Made by a program: the position numbers and the translations under genes. Under the pieces are notes generated by a model. That model had not been told where the DNA came from, did no database searches, and was given only the letters and a program-made list of their open reading frames with translations. Of a stretch of DNA of 64,000 bases, positions 1-31,734 are shown one piece after another; the stretch's first letter is position 1, and each line of letters opens with the position of its first letter. Origin of the DNA: a virus; the IMG/VR virus record IMGVR_UViG_3300028840_004763, positions 1-64,000 of that record; one strand, 5' to 3'.

Positions 1-285
1 CTCTCGAAGCGTGCCTATCCCCTCGACGGTGGTGGCACGCGACGAGCTTTCGAGTGGTGCAACGGTACGATCTTCGCGGAGGAATCCGCCGTGGATGATC
101 CTGCCGACAAGGATGCCATCGTCCAGGAGGGTCTCTTGCAAGCGGTTGCGAGCGGTGCGCGCGTGTTGACGGCTTCCGAAGTCCGTCAGATCACGGCGTT
201 CGTCGCGAAGCATCCGCGCGACATTCCGGAGCCCCTCGCTGCCTTGATCACATCGGCCCTCCAGAGGGCGTCAGGAGTGAACTGA
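1..285 (+). CDS. C-terminal end of a head-region protein (partial)
   Basis: The frame is open from the first base of the window to a TGA at 283-285, so this is the last 94 residues of a gene that begins outside the window. An internal GTG at 91 could be read as a start, but the frame upstream of it is open and protein-like. The visible part is mixed charged/hydrophobic and ends in a helical segment. Its stop overlaps the ATG of the next gene by one base, so the two are translationally coupled. From its place before a scaffold-like gene and the major capsid gene it may be the end of a portal or prohead protease, but no diagnostic motif is visible. Confidence 0.6.
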   Translation, partial: LSKRAYPLDGGGTRRAFEWCNGTIFAEESAVDDPADKDAIVQEGLLQAVASGARVLTASEVRQITAFVAKHPRDIPEPLAALITSALQRASGVN

Positions 286-2108
286 TGACGCAACATCGAC
301 TCCAGCTTCTCAACACCGTCAAGGAGCTTCACGAGGCCGGGACGGTCAAGCTTTCCGATGCCGACAAGGCCAGGATCGAGGCGGAGACCGCCGATCTGAT
401 CCAACGTTCGCTCTTGAACTCGAAGCTGGCGATGAAGGCTCCTCCGGGTTTTGACGCGCTGCTCGAAGAGCTGAAGAAGGCCGAGGACGCCGATGCCGCC
501 TTCGAGACCGTGGTGAAGTTCTTGGATTCTCTCGAAGGCATGGAAGTTGAGTCCGAGGAAGAGGAAGAAGAGGAGGAATCCGAAGAGGAGGAATCCGAGG
601 CGAAGAATGGGGGGCCGGAGATGGGCGAGAAGAAGCCCGAACCTCCGAAGCCGAAAGAAGAAAAACCCTTCCCTCCGAAGCCGAAAGACGAGAAGAAGCC
701 CGGCCCACCCGAGGGCGGTCCGCCCAAATCCGGTCTCCCGAAGCCCGGTGAACCCAAGGAAGACGAGATGAAGGAAGCGCGGCAACAGCTCCTGCGCCGA
801 GCCCAGGAGCAGGAGACCCCCGAAGGCGGCATCAGCGATCTCCAGGAGAAGAAGCGCGAGAAGGCCGAAGCGCCGTCCGCTGACGAAATGGGCGTCGGGG
901 ACATGACGCCCGTCGCCAGAGCCGCGAAGATCAAGGTCGCGCTGACCAAGGATCGTAACCTCGTAGCCTCTCATCAGGATTTCGGTCCCGTGTTCTATGC
1001 GATGCCGGCCCCGGAAGTGAAGCGTGACGAGAACGCGCTGCGCCGGTTGGCCAACAAGGTCTTCGGGATCGCCCTCTACCAGGGCTTCAAGGAGGCCGCG
1101 CGCCTGTGCAAGGCGAAGCTGCTCATTGAAGCCGGGGTCGATGACGACGTCGTCACCGACTCCCAAGTGGAGGTGCCCCCGGCCACGCAGGGCATCACTG
1201 CCGATGAGGAGACCGATACGCGAGAGAAGCCAGAAGAAGGTGATTCCTCGGCGCTGCCGGGCATGGAGGTCGACACGCGCGAGAAGCCGCCGACCGTTTC
1301 CGACACCAAGACCAAGATGATCACGAGCAAGCGCAAACGCATCGCGTTGGCGAGTGCTCGTCATCGCGGCAAGGATATTCTCGACGAGGCCGAGGGCGTC
1401 ACCCAGACGCACAAGCCCTCGAAGCCGTCCGGCGATACCACCGATGACGCCGAGTTCAACAGCCAGGAAACGCCTCCTGCGCCTGCCGGTGACGTGCTCG
1501 CCGACGCGGACAACGATATTCGGACCACTCAGGCGAACATGAGCGAGCTGTACAAGCACCGGCTGGAGAAACGCCTCGCCGCCGAGAAGGAGCAGTTCGT
1601 CCGGAAGTTCACGCGGGCGCTCAGGATCGCGGGTACCCGAATGCTGCTCAACCACGAAGAGCATCCGCTCAAGGTGGCAGCGGTCGATGTGCTCACCGGG
1701 GAGGACATCGAATTCAGCGACGGCGAGCGCTATACCGGCATGGATGTCGGGACGGCGGTCGAGTTGACCGAGCTGATCGCTTCCGAAGGTCATGAGAGCT
1801 TCATGACCCGGCTGCTCTCCCGAGCTGCCGATCTGCTCGAAAAGGACGATCAGTATCTCGCCGATGCGGAGACCGATCTTCAGGATCAGGCTCCTGTCCC
1901 GGTGGGAGACGGTGGTCAAGCGACAGCGAGAAAGCGTTCCTCGCGGAATCGGCGTTCGGCGCGCGTGCGCCGGGAAGCCGCCGAGGGGAACTTCGGTAAG
2001 GAAAACGGAGCACCTGTTTCCAGCTCCAAACAAGCTTCTGGCGGTATTCGTGACGCCCTCAGTGGAGGCACCCTGCTCGGTCGTAGGATCGGCAGGCTTC
2101 AGGGCTGA
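285..2108 (+). CDS. Acidic internal head protein, probable scaffold/core protein
   Basis: A 607-residue protein of very low complexity. Residues about 85-107 are almost all Glu and Ser, residues about 108-165 are a Pro/Lys/Glu-rich linker, and the C-terminus is basic and Ser/Arg-rich. A short motif (DTREKP) occurs twice near residues 310-330. Two helical segments, about 225-285 and 415-525, look folded. It lies two genes before the major capsid gene, the usual place for a scaffold or prohead core protein. The strongly acidic stretch would complement the Arg-rich N-terminus of the capsid protein. Scaffolds diverge too fast for family recognition, so the role is inferred from composition and position. 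Confidence 0.5.
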   Translation: MTQHRLQLLNTVKELHEAGTVKLSDADKARIEAETADLIQRSLLNSKLAMKAPPGFDALLEELKKAEDADAAFETVVKFLDSLEGMEVESEEEEEEEESEEEESEAKNGGPEMGEKKPEPPKPKEEKPFPPKPKDEKKPGPPEGGPPKSGLPKPGEPKEDEMKEARQQLLRRAQEQETPEGGISDLQEKKREKAEAPSADEMGVGDMTPVARAAKIKVALTKDRNLVASHQDFGPVFYAMPAPEVKRDENALRRLANKVFGIALYQGFKEAARLCKAKLLIEAGVDDDVVTDSQVEVPPATQGITADEETDTREKPEEGDSSALPGMEVDTREKPPTVSDTKTKMITSKRKRIALASARHRGKDILDEAEGVTQTHKPSKPSGDTTDDAEFNSQETPPAPAGDVLADADNDIRTTQANMSELYKHRLEKRLAAEKEQFVRKFTRALRIAGTRMLLNHEEHPLKVAAVDVLTGEDIEFSDGERYTGMDVGTAVELTELIASEGHESFMTRLLSRAADLLEKDDQYLADAETDLQDQAPVPVGDGGQATARKRSSRNRRSARVRREAAEGNFGKENGAPVSSSKQASGGIRDALSGGTLLGRRIGRLQG

Positions 2109-2144
2109 ACGACACGGGATCGCCCCAACTGACGGAGGATAGAG

Positions 2145-2915
2145 ATGGCCTTCTCGCCGCGTATGGAAGCCTTCAGGGTTTCGAGCCGAGCAATCGGCAT
2201 CGACCTGATGCGCTCCCAGTACACGCGGAACCTGGGCACCTACGTCGCCAACGCCGCGACCACCTTCCGCGCGGGGATGCTCGTGTCCCTCAACGCGAGT
2301 CAGGAGATCGTGGTGTGCGACGGCACGACGCCTTTCGGTTTCGCGAAGTACACCAAGGCGCAGACGCTGTACGCAGCTGTGACTGCCGAGCAGATCCAGC
2401 TGAACGGCGTCATCGCCACCAACCTCGCCCACGGCAACCTCTGGACGCCGGGCGCAACCGGCGGCGTGCGCGTGACCGACATCACGGGTACGACCGTCTA
2501 CACCGAGGGTGCCGGTAACGACTACACGGTCAACTATGTCAACGGACAGGTGACCCGCGTGGCGACCGGTACCATCGGCGACGGTGACTATGTACTGGTG
2601 GATTACCAGTATCAGGTCACCGAGCAAGAGCTGAAGTTCGAGGGGCGCAACTTCTGGAACTTCATCGACGACGTCACCATTCAGGGCGACAAGATCACCG
2701 TGATCAACGACTGGTCGTTCATCTGGACGACCCAGTACGATCCGGCCCAGACCTACGCCGTGAACGACGTCCTGAACGCCGGTATGTCGGGTGCCTCCAA
2801 GGCCGGTCTCGTGACCAAGGGCGGTGGTGGTGCCTACATCGGCAGGGTCTTCCAGGTCCCGACAGCGGACGATCCCTTCCTGGGCATCCGTTACGTCGGC
2901 GGCATGGTCAGCTAG
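2145..2915 (+). CDS. Probable capsid decoration/head structural protein
   Basis: A 256-residue protein with a good Shine-Dalgarno (GGAGG at 2134-2138). The sequence is rich in Gly, Thr, Val and Asn and predicts mostly beta structure; residues about 105-160 have the alternating pattern of a small immunoglobulin-like or beta-sandwich module. It lies 15 bases before the major capsid gene, where many large phages place a head decoration or head-stabilising protein. It has no signal peptide or membrane segment. The function is inferred from gene order; a minor capsid or capsid fibre protein is equally possible. Confidence 0.5.
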   Translation: MAFSPRMEAFRVSSRAIGIDLMRSQYTRNLGTYVANAATTFRAGMLVSLNASQEIVVCDGTTPFGFAKYTKAQTLYAAVTAEQIQLNGVIATNLAHGNLWTPGATGGVRVTDITGTTVYTEGAGNDYTVNYVNGQVTRVATGTIGDGDYVLVDYQYQVTEQELKFEGRNFWNFIDDVTIQGDKITVINDWSFIWTTQYDPAQTYAVNDVLNAGMSGASKAGLVTKGGGGAYIGRVFQVPTADDPFLGIRYVGGMVS

Positions 2916-2930
2916 GAAAGGAGGAGGACG

Positions 2931-4241
2931 ATGAAGAATCCGTACAAGCGAATCGCCAAGAATCGTCGCCCCGTTTCCTCGCGGACCGCCCGCAGGACCT
3001 CGGAGCGTCAGCGTCCGGAACGTCCGGAGCGCAAGCCTGCCGCGCAGCCGCGTGACCGTCGCCAGTCGGAGCGCCGCCCCGAGGGGAGCGACGACAAGCG
3101 TCAGCGCTTGGCCGCTCGTCCGCGTGAGCGGTTCGGGTCGCGGAGGGACGAGGGTCTCTTCGAGGGAGGCGGCTCCTTCAACCCGCAGCGGTACGACCAT
3201 CCGTCGAGCCGTCGGGCGACCGCGAGCCAGACCGACCGGCGCATGTTCGACAAGCGCGGCGAGGTCAACGCCTACGACAAGCGGGACGCGATGGTGCAGG
3301 TCAACGAGCTGCTGAACGAGATCACCAAGAAGAACGCCAAGGCGCTCTCGTTCTATCGCCCGGACACCGAGTCGAGCATCTCCAAGGAGGCCCGGCGCGA
3401 CATCCTCGGCGCAGCGCTCACCGACCCGACCGGCCAGGGCTTCCACATCGTGGGCCAGGAGCTGGCTCTGCCGATCAAGGCGATCCTCGACTACGAGGGC
3501 TTCAGCCGGAAGATCTACCGGGTGCGGAAGCTGGCTCAGGCCGAGCTGTTCCGTCTCCCGGTCGACATCCGGTCGACCGCCTGGGTCGTGGGTCAGGACG
3601 GCCAGTCGCCCGAGTCGCGGATCAAAACCAAGTGGATCACGCCACCCGAGTGGAAGGTCACTTCGTTCCCGAGCATCGACATCCAGGACATCTACCAGAT
3701 GAACTTCGATGTGCTCGACCGCGCTCAGGACACGGCCCGCCAGGAGATCGAGCTGCAAGAGGACAAGGCCGGCATCAGCCTGATCGACGAGGCTGCGCAG
3801 ACCGAGAACGCCGTGACGACCTTCGCCACGCTGGGCATCGCCGCGTTCGAGGACGTGCGGTTCCAGGTCGAGCGGCACCGCCTCATGGTCGAGAACTTCC
3901 TGATCTCCCGCGCCGAGCTGTCCGACATCGTGAAGACGATGTCCGCAGCCGTGGATCCGGTCACCGAGCGTGAGCTGATCCTGGCCGGGTACATCGGGAA
4001 CATCCTGAACGCCCAGATCCTGACCGCCGCCGGTACCGGCGTCGAGGAAGTCATCCCTCCGGGGACCTTCTACGCGACGACCGGCGCGGACTACATGGGC
4101 GAGATGGGTGTGCGGATCGAGCTGTTCAGCGAGCCCTACAACAAGTACTCCCACCAGGAGACGGTGAAGGGCTGGGCGTTCATCGAGATGATCGGTTTCG
4201 CCATCGCCAACAGCCGGTCGTGCGCGAAGGGCCAGAAGTAG
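2931..4241 (+). CDS. Major capsid protein, HK97-like fold
   Basis: A 436-residue protein preceded by a strong AAAGGAGGA. Residues about 130-430 have the organisation of HK97-fold major capsid proteins: a long N-arm, a spine-helix region, an ITPPEWK-type E-loop area and a C-terminal part ending in MIGFAIANSRSCAKGQ. The first 90 residues are unusual, being packed with Arg, Pro, Glu and Lys and lacking hydrophobic residues. They may be a delta domain removed by a prohead protease, or an interior nucleic-acid-binding tail. Position after scaffold and decoration genes supports the call. A structured RNA begins 16 bases after the stop codon. Confidence 0.85.
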   Translation: MKNPYKRIAKNRRPVSSRTARRTSERQRPERPERKPAAQPRDRRQSERRPEGSDDKRQRLAARPRERFGSRRDEGLFEGGGSFNPQRYDHPSSRRATASQTDRRMFDKRGEVNAYDKRDAMVQVNELLNEITKKNAKALSFYRPDTESSISKEARRDILGAALTDPTGQGFHIVGQELALPIKAILDYEGFSRKIYRVRKLAQAELFRLPVDIRSTAWVVGQDGQSPESRIKTKWITPPEWKVTSFPSIDIQDIYQMNFDVLDRAQDTARQEIELQEDKAGISLIDEAAQTENAVTTFATLGIAAFEDVRFQVERHRLMVENFLISRAELSDIVKTMSAAVDPVTERELILAGYIGNILNAQILTAAGTGVEEVIPPGTFYATTGADYMGEMGVRIELFSEPYNKYSHQETVKGWAFIEMIGFAIANSRSCAKGQK

Positions 4242-4256
4242 CGAGAGCTGCTTGAT

Positions 4257-4346
4257 GGGTGCGCCGGGAGGCGCTGAAGGTCTCCCGGCCCATCCTGGGC
4301 CATAACCCCGCGAGAGCGGGAGGTGGGGTAACACCCTGGCACACCA
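4257..4346 (+). ncRNA. Multibranched structured RNA resembling HEARO/omega RNA
   Basis: Seen in sequence: an outer helix pairs 4258-4265 with 4338-4345 (seven of eight pairs, one C-A mismatch). It encloses four hairpins: 4266-4270 with 4282-4286; 4287-4292 with 4296-4301 (triloop TCC); 4307-4311 with 4316-4320 (GAGA, a GNRA tetraloop); and 4326-4329 with 4333-4336 (loop AAC). A reading frame matching the IscB N-terminal domain begins 15 bases later. Known: HEARO RNAs, now called omega RNAs, lie directly upstream of iscB-type genes and carry a 5' guide. The family assignment is inferred from architecture and context and needs a covariance-model search. It lies in the probable late operon and would be transcribed with the capsid message. 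Confidence 0.55.
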
Positions 4347-4360
4347 CGAGGAATCTGGAT

Positions 4361-4516
4361 GTGGGTAATCGAGTTCCCGTCCTGGGGCCGGACGATACCG
4401 TTCTGTCCTATACCCACCCTGCCAGGGCAAGGAAACTGGTCAAGAACGGAAAGGCGGTCGTCGCCAACGGACGACCTTTCATCATTCGGTTAAACCGAGA
4501 TCCCAGGGAGGACAAA
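4361..4516 (+). CDS. RRXRR/PLMP-domain reading frame (IscB N-terminus-like), in frame with the next gene
   Basis: From GTG 4361 the frame encodes 52 residues before the ATG of the next gene, without a stop. The core VPVL, THPARARKLVKNGKA and RPFIIRL matches the consensus of the RRXRR (PLMP) domain that opens IscB and related OMEGA proteins. The four-residue PLMP signature itself is changed to VLSY. A GAGGA at 4348-4352 could serve as Shine-Dalgarno. No bridge helix, RuvC or HNH region follows. It could be made as an N-terminal extension of the downstream protein, or be a remnant of an iscB-like gene cut by an in-frame deletion. Preservation of the hydrophobic core and basic residues argues against neutral decay. 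Whether it is translated is unknown. Confidence 0.5.
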
Positions 4517-5185
4517 ATGCCGAAGCCCGTACCAATCATTACGAATTTCACCGAGTACTTCAGGGTCGAGCGGGACGTGTACGTCCAGAATATGAGCAAC
4601 ACCCAGGTGTCGCTCCAGTTCGAGACGTTTCCCGGTCGGATCGAGAGCGTGCTGCTCCCGAAGACCAAGAACCCGCTCAACTTGACGCAGCTCATACCTT
4701 TCAGCGCGATCAAGCAGTCGGTCGATCTGCGGAAGATGGTCAATCGTCGTCCGCCGGTTCTGCGGCTGCTGGAGGAGAACGAGTACATCGAGTTCTACCA
4801 GAACCTTGCCAAGCGCCGGGGCGTTTCGCCCGAAGAGGTGATGGATGAGGCGCACCAGTCGCAGTCCGATCTCCAGAACAAGCGTGCTTTCACCAATCCG
4901 ACCAGGAAGGCCAGGAAGACCATCGAGGAGGAGGCTGAGGAGCGCAAGAACGAGCCGATGGATCCGGACGAAAAGGTCACGGCTCGGGTCGTGGGTCTCT
5001 GTGCCAGCGTCGGGGACGACCTCGACGAGAAAGATCGCATGGGTGCTCGCGAAATGCTCGATGAGCTGCGCGAGATGGATCTGACCACGGCGGACCTGGA
5101 GTACCTGCTCGGCCACGGCTACTACAAGTCGGTCAAGAAGTACGCGCAGAAGGAGCTGGAGGAACGCGTCAACGAGCCTGCATAA
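4517..5185 (+). CDS. Structural-operon protein of unknown function
   Basis: A 222-residue protein. ATG 4517 is chosen because AGGGAGGA lies at 4505-4512; the frame stays open upstream through the RRXRR-like segment, so a longer form starting at GTG 4361 is possible. The N-terminal 110 residues look like a compact domain. Residues about 110-160 are a charged, Lys/Glu-rich helical linker, and the C-terminus is helical. No family is recognised. Its place between the major capsid gene and a run of small virion genes suggests a head or virion protein. Confidence 0.6.
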   Translation: MPKPVPIITNFTEYFRVERDVYVQNMSNTQVSLQFETFPGRIESVLLPKTKNPLNLTQLIPFSAIKQSVDLRKMVNRRPPVLRLLEENEYIEFYQNLAKRRGVSPEEVMDEAHQSQSDLQNKRAFTNPTRKARKTIEEEAEERKNEPMDPDEKVTARVVGLCASVGDDLDEKDRMGAREMLDELREMDLTTADLEYLLGHGYYKSVKKYAQKELEERVNEPA

Positions 5186-5261: not shown

Positions 5262-5723
5262 ATGGGGCAGGCCAGAGAGACGATTCGAGATATCATTGTT
5301 CCCGCCGGGGGCAAGATTCGTGTCTGGGATGCTCCGATCAGTATGCCTCTCAAGGATCTCTACATCTGGGCCAGTACGAGAGGATCGAAGTTGTCGCTTG
5401 CGCTCGATTGGGAGGTCTTTTACGGTGGCGGCTGGACGGGAAGTCCCTTCGGTGAGAACGACCGCGAAGGTGTCGCGCCGAGTGCGCACAAAGGGGGTGT
5501 CAGTCAAGGCACCGGTTCGTTCGCGGCAGCGGCTGAGCTTGCCACGATGTTCTATTCCGATCTGGATCATCTGCCGGGGAATCGGATAGCACCTACGCCA
5601 CCACAACCGGTTCATCGAGCCCCGGGTTTTCCTATTGTCGTCGAACTGGATAATACCCTTGGGGGTACTCCTGTAAAGATCACGATTATCTTCCTGACTC
5701 AAGTGGTCACGGATCGCTACTAG
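5262..5723 (+). CDS. Small virion protein, first of a tandem pair
   Basis: A 153-residue beta-rich protein starting at ATG 5262 behind GAGGTGA. It is highly similar end to end to the next gene: both begin MGQARET, share ALDWEVFYGGGWTG in the middle and end IVVELDN...FLTQVVTDRY. The pair arose by tandem duplication and has diverged with small loop changes near residues 65-80 and 130-138. There is no membrane segment or enzyme motif. Location among structural genes suggests a decoration or vertex protein, but the family is not recognised. Confidence 0.6.
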   Translation: MGQARETIRDIIVPAGGKIRVWDAPISMPLKDLYIWASTRGSKLSLALDWEVFYGGGWTGSPFGENDREGVAPSAHKGGVSQGTGSFAAAAELATMFYSDLDHLPGNRIAPTPPQPVHRAPGFPIVVELDNTLGGTPVKITIIFLTQVVTDRY

Positions 5724-5731
5724 GAGGAAGT

Positions 5732-6178
5732 ATGGGACAGGCCAGGGAGACGGTTCGAGAGGTTGTTGTTCCAGCCGGGACTACGATCCGTATCTGGGAT
5801 GCCCCGATCAGTATGCAGATCAAGGATCTCTACATCTGGGCGACCACGCGTGGCGTTCAGCTGGCGGGTGCCCTCGACTGGGAAGTCTTCTACGGAGGGG
5901 GTTGGACCGGGCAGCCCTTCGACGAGAACGATTCCGGCAGCACACATCAAGGCGGCGTCAGTCAAGGCAGCGGCACGTTCGCTGGCGGTGCGGAACTCGT
6001 CAGCATGTTCCATTCTGACACGGATCATATGCCTGCGAATCGAGTGGAACCAACACCGCCTCGACCGGCAGTACGCGCAGCAGGTTTTCCCATTGTTGTC
6101 GAGCTGGACAATGGCGGTCTCGTGGATATTTCTATCGTGATCACCTTTTTGACTCAGGTGGTCACTGACCGTTACTAG
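5732..6178 (+). CDS. Small virion protein, second of a tandem pair
   Basis: A 148-residue paralog of the preceding gene, separated by 8 bases and preceded by TAGGAGGAAG. Conserved blocks cover the whole length (IWDAPISM, GGVSQG, GFPIVVELD). The main differences are a shorter loop near residue 70 and loss of a few residues near the C-terminus. Retention of both copies suggests either dosage need or two related positions in the particle. Function unknown. Confidence 0.6.
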   Translation: MGQARETVREVVVPAGTTIRIWDAPISMQIKDLYIWATTRGVQLAGALDWEVFYGGGWTGQPFDENDSGSTHQGGVSQGSGTFAGGAELVSMFHSDTDHMPANRVEPTPPRPAVRAAGFPIVVELDNGGLVDISIVITFLTQVVTDRY

Positions 6179-30303: not shown

Positions 30304-31734
30304 ATGACCATTCGGAGAAGGACCGAGACGGAGTTCGCTGACCAGATTGCCGATGGGATCGCCCAGCGGGACGAGACCGTCGACACCAGGATCGGCTCGA
30401 TTCGGGACATCTTCATCACTCCGCCGTCCGTGGTGATGAAGGACATCAACGACAACATCGTCTACTTGTCGCAGCTCACGAGCTTGCAGAACGCGGAGCA
30501 GTTCGCTCCCGCCGATCTGGATGGCTTCGTCTTCAACGAGGGTCTCGTGCGGTGGGACGGTGCTCCGTCGCTCGCCATCGTCACCTTCGCGCGCATCCAG
30601 CCGCCGACTGCCAACATTCCCATCCCGTCGAACTTCCCGTTGTCGACGGTGCAGGATCCTTCGACGGGTCAGATCACGGAGTTCAAGACCATCGAATCGG
30701 CGGTCATGTACGGGCCTGCCACAGTGCCGGCCTCTGCGTACTACAATGCCGATACGGAGCGTTACGAGATCGATGTGGCTGTTGCCAGCGTGGTGAAAGG
30801 CGAATCGACTGCGGTGGGGGCCTACACGATCACGCAGTTCCGACGTCCCTTCCCGGATTTCGACTATGTGTACAACAAGGAGGCTACGACCAGCGGACGC
30901 GGCTTGGAGACGAATCTCGAACTCGCCCGGCGTTACCAGATGCAGGTAGAGGGCTCGCAGCTGGGGCCGGCTCGCGGTCTTCAGCGTTTCATTCTCGACA
31001 GTTTCAGCAGCTCCTTAGATGCCTACGTGGTTTACGGAGAGAACGAGAATCTGCTGCGGGAGATGTACGATGCCGGCGCGGTCGACTGCTGGATCCTCGG
31101 CGATTCGCCGGCAACCGTTTCCATGACGACCAACTATCCCGGTATCGAGACGTTGATCCCTTTGGAAAAGCAGCCGGTGGTGGAGGTCATCTCGGTTTCG
31201 GACTCGGGGACGACTTATATCGCGGGGACCGACTACGTAGTCGTGACCGGCGAGACCATCTACGCCTACAGCGACCGTGGCCAGGACGGCATCCGCTTCA
31301 TTGCCGGGGGATCGGCCCCCACCTTGAACGCGGCGATCACCATCGTCTACTCGTACAACAGCCTCATCACCACGATGACGGCCTACTACCGTCAATCCGA
31401 GTACTACGTGATGGGATCGGACGTCTTGTTCCGCTGGGCGCAGGCTCAGCAGCTGGAAATCGAGGCTAACTTGAAAGTATCTTCGGGCAATCCGGACTCG
31501 GTGCTCCAGCTGGTTCGCGAGCGTGTTTTGAACTACATCAACGGGCTCCTTCTGGGCAATAACGTCGAGGAGTTCGATATCGATGCGGAGGTTGCGCGCG
31601 TTTTCGGGGTCGATAACTGGACCTACACCACCCTCGCGGTCGAGGGTGGTACGGGAGTTGCGGACATCGAGATTCCACCGAACCAGTATGCGCGGCTGGA
31701 AGAGGCGAATCTCATCGTGAACTTGGTGTCGTAA
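30304..31734 (+). CDS. Baseplate wedge protein J-like (gp6-like)
   Basis: A 476-residue protein with GAGGTAA before ATG 30304. The N-terminus (ETVDTRIGSIRDIFITPPS) and the middle ARRYQMQVEGSQLGPARGLQRFI fit the baseplate J family, whose members share a 'GS..RD' start and a conserved region entering the core. The C-terminal region after about residue 390 ends in a beta segment (YTTLAVEGG). It follows the gp25-like gene, as in most contractile tails, and forms wedge dimers around the hub. Confidence 0.75.
   Translation: MTIRRRTETEFADQIADGIAQRDETVDTRIGSIRDIFITPPSVVMKDINDNIVYLSQLTSLQNAEQFAPADLDGFVFNEGLVRWDGAPSLAIVTFARIQPPTANIPIPSNFPLSTVQDPSTGQITEFKTIESAVMYGPATVPASAYYNADTERYEIDVAVASVVKGESTAVGAYTITQFRRPFPDFDYVYNKEATTSGRGLETNLELARRYQMQVEGSQLGPARGLQRFILDSFSSSLDAYVVYGENENLLREMYDAGAVDCWILGDSPATVSMTTNYPGIETLIPLEKQPVVEVISVSDSGTTYIAGTDYVVVTGETIYAYSDRGQDGIRFIAGGSAPTLNAAITIVYSYNSLITTMTAYYRQSEYYVMGSDVLFRWAQAQQLEIEANLKVSSGNPDSVLQLVRERVLNYINGLLLGNNVEEFDIDAEVARVFGVDNWTYTTLAVEGGTGVADIEIPPNQYARLEEANLIVNLVS

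Follow-up and report, generated by a model that had tools for sequence, protein, structure and literature searches.

A nuclease-free PLMP domain behind conserved tandem hairpins in the leader of a phage virion gene

The leader between the major head protein gene and the next gene of a phage virion operon contains two tandem hairpins (positions 4303-4336) that are conserved in about 20 related phages and are located just 5′ of a PLMP domain. We consider it fairly probable that the two form a nuclease-free PLMP-plus-hairpin module in which the protein would bind its own mRNA and thereby control its translation (autogenous regulation), matching the output of the second virion gene to need; this reading is drawn from sequence comparison and from analogy with known systems. 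No description of such a phage module was found in the open-access literature searched. The DNA analyzed, referred to below as the window, is a 64-kb part of an 83-kb virus record; coordinates are those of the window, and features are on the plus strand unless stated otherwise.

The gene upstream of the leader (2931-4241) codes for the major head protein (phrog_2522, E 4e-58), in agreement with the first-pass annotation, which had called it the major capsid gene. A minus-strand frame at 186-4430 was taken to be a composition artefact of GC-rich DNA and not a gene. Twenty-nine loci with related head proteins, together with others reached via the PLMP gene, provided about 20 different leaders for comparison. 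Farther along the virion operon, two adjacent genes (5262-5723 and 5732-6178) encode similar proteins, each starting with MGQARET..., and constitute a tandem duplication.

The intergenic leader is ca. 120 bases long in the window and 85-138 bases long in most relatives. The segment 4257-4346 had been described as a structured RNA in which a helix (4258-4265/4338-4345) encloses four hairpins (4266-4286, 4287-4301, 4307-4320 and 4326-4336), one of them with a GNRA tetraloop. The structure is real, as the predicted fold (-53.1 kcal/mol, z -3.2) was not equalled by any of 200 shuffled sequences. All four hairpins can be drawn, and the GNRA loop is GAGA at 4312-4315. Comparison of relatives revealed compensatory changes in the tandem hairpins at 4303-4336, but not all of the described structure is shared. 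The hairpin at 4287-4301 is not conserved among the compared leaders, and the enclosing helix is predicted for no more than 3 of 15 folded leaders (those of the window, L005 and L010), so neither was retained as a conserved part. As judged from folds and leader sequences, the hairpin at 4266-4286 (HP1), just 3′ of the capsid stop codon, has a counterpart in every relative in the form of a strong hairpin, but its sequence is different in each; in the AT-rich relatives L020, L021 and L022 it is terminator-like, with a U run. The leader sequence 5′ of HP1 is not conserved.

The first conserved hairpin, HP2 (UAACC-CCGC-GAGA-GCGG-GA-GGU, 4303-4324), is followed by HP3 (GGGU-AAC-ACCC, 4326-4336), whose counterparts in relatives are GNRA-capped AGC/GCU or GAGC/GCUC stems. 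With the arms placed by eye, changes on both sides were observed in 8 of the 11 pairs of HP2 and HP3, including all four pairs of HP3, and the covariation score for these hand-placed arms was 0.648, compared to 0.225 after shuffling (0 of 500 shuffles as high) and at most 0.134 when the arms were slid. The outermost ACC/GGU pairs of HP2 showed no covariation and are thus unsupported as pairs. An unguided alignment recovered the same two hairpins. For HP3, folding of the window sequence by itself favours a GGUG/CACC register, whereas comparative data favour 4326-4336. A covariance model built from seven GC-rich phage leaders (the phage model) scored 57.5 bits at HP2; a weak second match to this model (14.5 bits, E 0.013) is located at 30608-30686 on the minus strand of the window.

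An automated HP2 descriptor was satisfied by 20 of 22 leaders of relatives that carry the PLMP domain, by none of four relatives that lack it and by ca. 3% of control stretches. Among domain-carrying relatives, the standard hairpins are missing from L026 and only weakly matched in L031, and in L018 about 1.6-1.7 kb of small ORFs separate the leader hairpins, which stay beside the capsid gene, from the domain. Some of these inserted ORFs (L018, 7264-8957) contain CxxC motifs, and two are near-identical copies. On the head-protein tree, relatives without the domain are placed between two groups that have it. Hairpins and PLMP have thus come or gone together at least two times, unless the tree is unresolved at this point.

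The first-pass annotation had also placed a frame with the N-terminal domain of IscB proteins directly 3′ of the RNA. The domain is indeed present: within frame 4259-5185, positions 1-48 of Pfam RRXRR, the PLMP domain of IscB/IsrB, are matched at 4373-4516 with 34.5 bits (cut-off 25, E 2e-8). It does not, however, form a separate frame: the domain and the downstream virion protein are encoded by a single uninterrupted gene. The best start of this gene is GTG 4361, behind a Shine-Dalgarno-like GAGGA (4348-4352), which gives a 274-aa protein (4361-5185) whose remainder is phage protein phrog_17686. A profile of the phage PLMP domain retrieved TbaIscB from PDB (E 3e-12). The AlphaFold model (mean pLDDT 82) contains a strand-strand-helix-strand-strand arrangement at residues 5-44, and the best nine Foldseek matches in PDB were all IscB/IsrB, followed by the IF3 N-domain. 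No RuvC-like nuclease or bridge helix follows the domain in the window or in any matching phage record, the Pfam match ending near position 46-62 of 174. The domain is kept in frame with the remainder of the gene in all relatives that carry it, across deep divergence, and its dN/dS of 0.175 (about 0.18), compared to 0.20 for the rest of the gene, means that it is under purifying selection as the rest is.

At the end of the PLMP-coding part, an internal Shine-Dalgarno sequence, GGGAGGA, precedes an in-frame ATG (4517; both within 4506-4519). Of 22 relatives, 19 have such a sequence at the internal ATG, compared to 15% of codon positions. The gene, therefore, probably yields a long form and a short form, the latter without PLMP.

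The first hint of a motif common to HP2 and IscB loci came from two IscB leaders, L087 and L082. We searched two sets of IscB leaders, 83 from 80 genome loci and five plasmid loci (set 1) and 65 from 72 viral-contig loci (set 2), for ACC followed by a stem of at least 4 pairs and GA. The motif was found in 13 of 83 leaders of set 1 (0.86 expected, 15-fold) and in 18 of 65 leaders of set 2 (0.64 expected, 28-fold); near copies inflate the counts, yet the 18 hits include 16 distinct sequences. Alternative prefixes and suffixes were enriched at most 6-fold in set 1, and in set 2 ACC...AA (17.6-fold) and UAC...GA (9-fold) were raised, which may in part reflect shifted readings of the same hairpins. 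A second covariance model, built from 17 IscB hairpins and no phage leaders, was then used to scan 240 kb of phage loci, and its top six matches were HP2 of six phages (E 0.005-0.09). The model is short: its match to HP2 of the window (11.9 bits) ranks third over the full 64 kb (E 0.99), and significance is reached only in a search confined to the leader (E 0.003) or across relatives. In the opposite direction, the phage model proved too narrow to serve as a finder of IscB leaders, since in 329 kb only the leader of L126 (E 0.86) was a meaningful match. The motif enrichment and the matches of the IscB-derived model indicate that HP2 is, at the level of sequence, the same type of hairpin as the 3′-terminal hairpin of IscB leaders. 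The link to OMEGA systems that the first-pass annotation had seen is therefore genuine. Common descent of HP2 together with the PLMP domain would be the simplest account; for the hairpin, convergence on the same partner is a possible alternative.

In IsrB, PLMP binds tandem hairpins SL7 and SL8 at the 3′ end of the omega RNA, SL7 carries the Shine-Dalgarno sequence of isrB itself, and the domain resembles IF3-N (PMC9581776). PLMP likewise holds the terminal hairpins of the IscB RNA, by contacts that are mostly independent of sequence (PMC9640706). If the hairpins at 4303-4336 belong to the same RNA type as these, their most likely ligand is the PLMP domain encoded just downstream on the same mRNA. 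Since the hairpin pair stands in front of a PLMP gene without scaffold or nuclease, it is most simply viewed as a cis-acting site for the product of that gene; as expected of an autogenous leader, a conserved structured RNA lies beside a gene whose product has an RNA-binding domain. Once bound, the protein would influence translation from the Shine-Dalgarno and start region right 3′ of the hairpins, probably as feedback repression or possibly as assisted initiation, and the output of the second virion gene would be adjusted to need. Use of the internal start would let the same gene also supply PLMP-free protein. In AT-rich relatives such as L022, the only Shine-Dalgarno sequence (GAGGAGGU) lies within HP2, and the stretch up to the AUG is taken up by HP3, so control would be direct. 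GC-rich phages, including that of the window, have a separate likely Shine-Dalgarno sequence 3′ of the hairpins; in the window this sequence is outside them, and its occlusion would be indirect.

Three other explanations were considered. The segment 4257-4346 had been proposed to be a HEARO/omega RNA, which could serve as a decoy for a host OMEGA system, as a guide for a host protein or as a regulatory mRNA structure. HEARO identity was ruled out by searches with Rfam (RF02033, covariance model of 211 positions, gathering score 83 bits): the whole window contained no Rfam match at gathering score, and HEARO was not found at E≤10 in 4100-4500 or in ten related phage records. The same library did find HEARO in four IscB plasmid loci fetched for comparison. 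The large pseudoknot scaffold and 5′ guide segment are absent, the leader holding only HP1 and the tandem hairpins. Since this scaffold is missing and the stretch is not conserved, a guide position at 4242-4257 has no support. The motif in common with the 3′ end of omega RNA speaks for an omega-like decoy or guide for a host nuclease, but only the terminal hairpin part is there, with neither guide position nor conserved sequence upstream of HP1, and we regard this explanation as very improbable. Of the three roles proposed, the evidence favours the last, a regulatory mRNA structure.

A regulatory structure need not involve PLMP. The hairpins alone might act in cis, by presenting the ribosome binding site or by protecting or processing the mRNA between differently expressed virion genes, with PLMP being merely structural. 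Every relative has a strong hairpin 3′ of the capsid stop, terminator-like in AT-rich phages, which would fit, as would L018, where the hairpins remain by the capsid gene with PLMP 1.6 kb away. However, it is the tandem hairpins, unlike HP1, that are missing in all four relatives without PLMP, and HP2 is common to IscB leaders, where PLMP contacts the terminal hairpins (PMC9581776). We thus hold a purely cis-acting role to be unlikely, though it deserves to be taken seriously. Insertion and decay of an IscB/HEARO element between two virion genes, leaving hairpins and PLMP as functionless relics, would account for their proximity, as PLMP and the terminal hairpin adjoin each other in IscB loci. 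This scenario is improbable given purifying selection on PLMP, covariation in the hairpins and the in-frame fusion kept in all domain-carrying relatives over deep divergence.

The proposed autogenous module can be compared with several known systems. With IsrB/IscB OMEGA loci it shares PLMP, by sequence and by fold (PMC9581776, PMC9640706), and an ACC-hairpin-GA first terminal hairpin with another hairpin directly 5′ of the PLMP start. In contrast to these loci, RuvC, bridge helix, HNH, TAM domain, omega scaffold and guide are lacking, and PLMP is fused to a virion-operon protein. HEARO RF02033 is similar in its position directly 5′ of a PLMP-coding frame, and its Rfam model ends with ...cauUAC, where the terminal hairpin of IscB loci begins, but it has no match in the phages even at E≤10. 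In bacteria, ribosomal proteins and IF3 have autogenous mRNA leaders. These resemble the phage locus in that a small structured leader stands by the gene of an RNA-binding protein, and PLMP has the IF3 N-domain fold; the RNA and the protein are different, and regulation in the phage is inferred. TldR, a nuclease-dead TnpB repressor of phages, acts as an RNA-guided transcription factor (PMC13418256). It is another case of phage reuse of an OMEGA part without nuclease, but the phage locus studied here keeps only PLMP and the terminal hairpin pair and implies no DNA target.

IscB-type nucleases are relatives of the ancestor of Cas9, which later lost PLMP. In IscB/IsrB, PLMP and the terminal hairpins are a machine part adjoining the gene's own ribosome binding site. 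That the pair is kept under selection in a virion operon, alone, with no guide or nuclease, suggests that the two make up a separable RNA-protein unit with a job of its own, and that part of an RNA-guided system has come to control the amount of a phage structural protein. With ca. 50 aa and ca. 40 nt, it makes a small system in which one can test whether OMEGA RNAs began as, or can revert to, cis-acting translational controls. It is a more speculative and rather doubtful proposition that nuclease-free PLMP domains belong to a general class of leader modules through which mobile elements adjust the translation of their morphogenesis genes; pairs of Shine-Dalgarno hairpins and PLMP could even be the ancestral partnership behind IscB omega RNA and hence Cas9 guides.

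Other nuclease-free PLMP frames were also observed. The phage of L063 has a second, stand-alone PLMP mini-ORF of ca. 42 aa (L184, G308; 943-1065) directly before a tail-sheath-like gene, with an ATG-TAA pair in front and GTG, or AUU as in infC, as candidate starts. In Methylomonas plasmids L086 (about 1970-2160), L088 and L089, a gene for a PLMP mini-protein (59% identity between plasmids) is located between traA and traC; its leader is structured, and its stop and the start of traC overlap (ATGCCTAA in L086). The IscB-derived model had no match in the leaders of the Methylomonas traC mini-genes or of the L184 mini-ORF. These mini-ORFs suggest a wider use of PLMP. A search of genomes of one phylum for phage-like nuclease-free PLMP retrieved IscB-length frames, one short frame, possibly of a decayed IscB, and an IshB-like protein of a bacterial genome (L170, G005; 1220-1918) in which PLMP is joined to HNH without RuvC.
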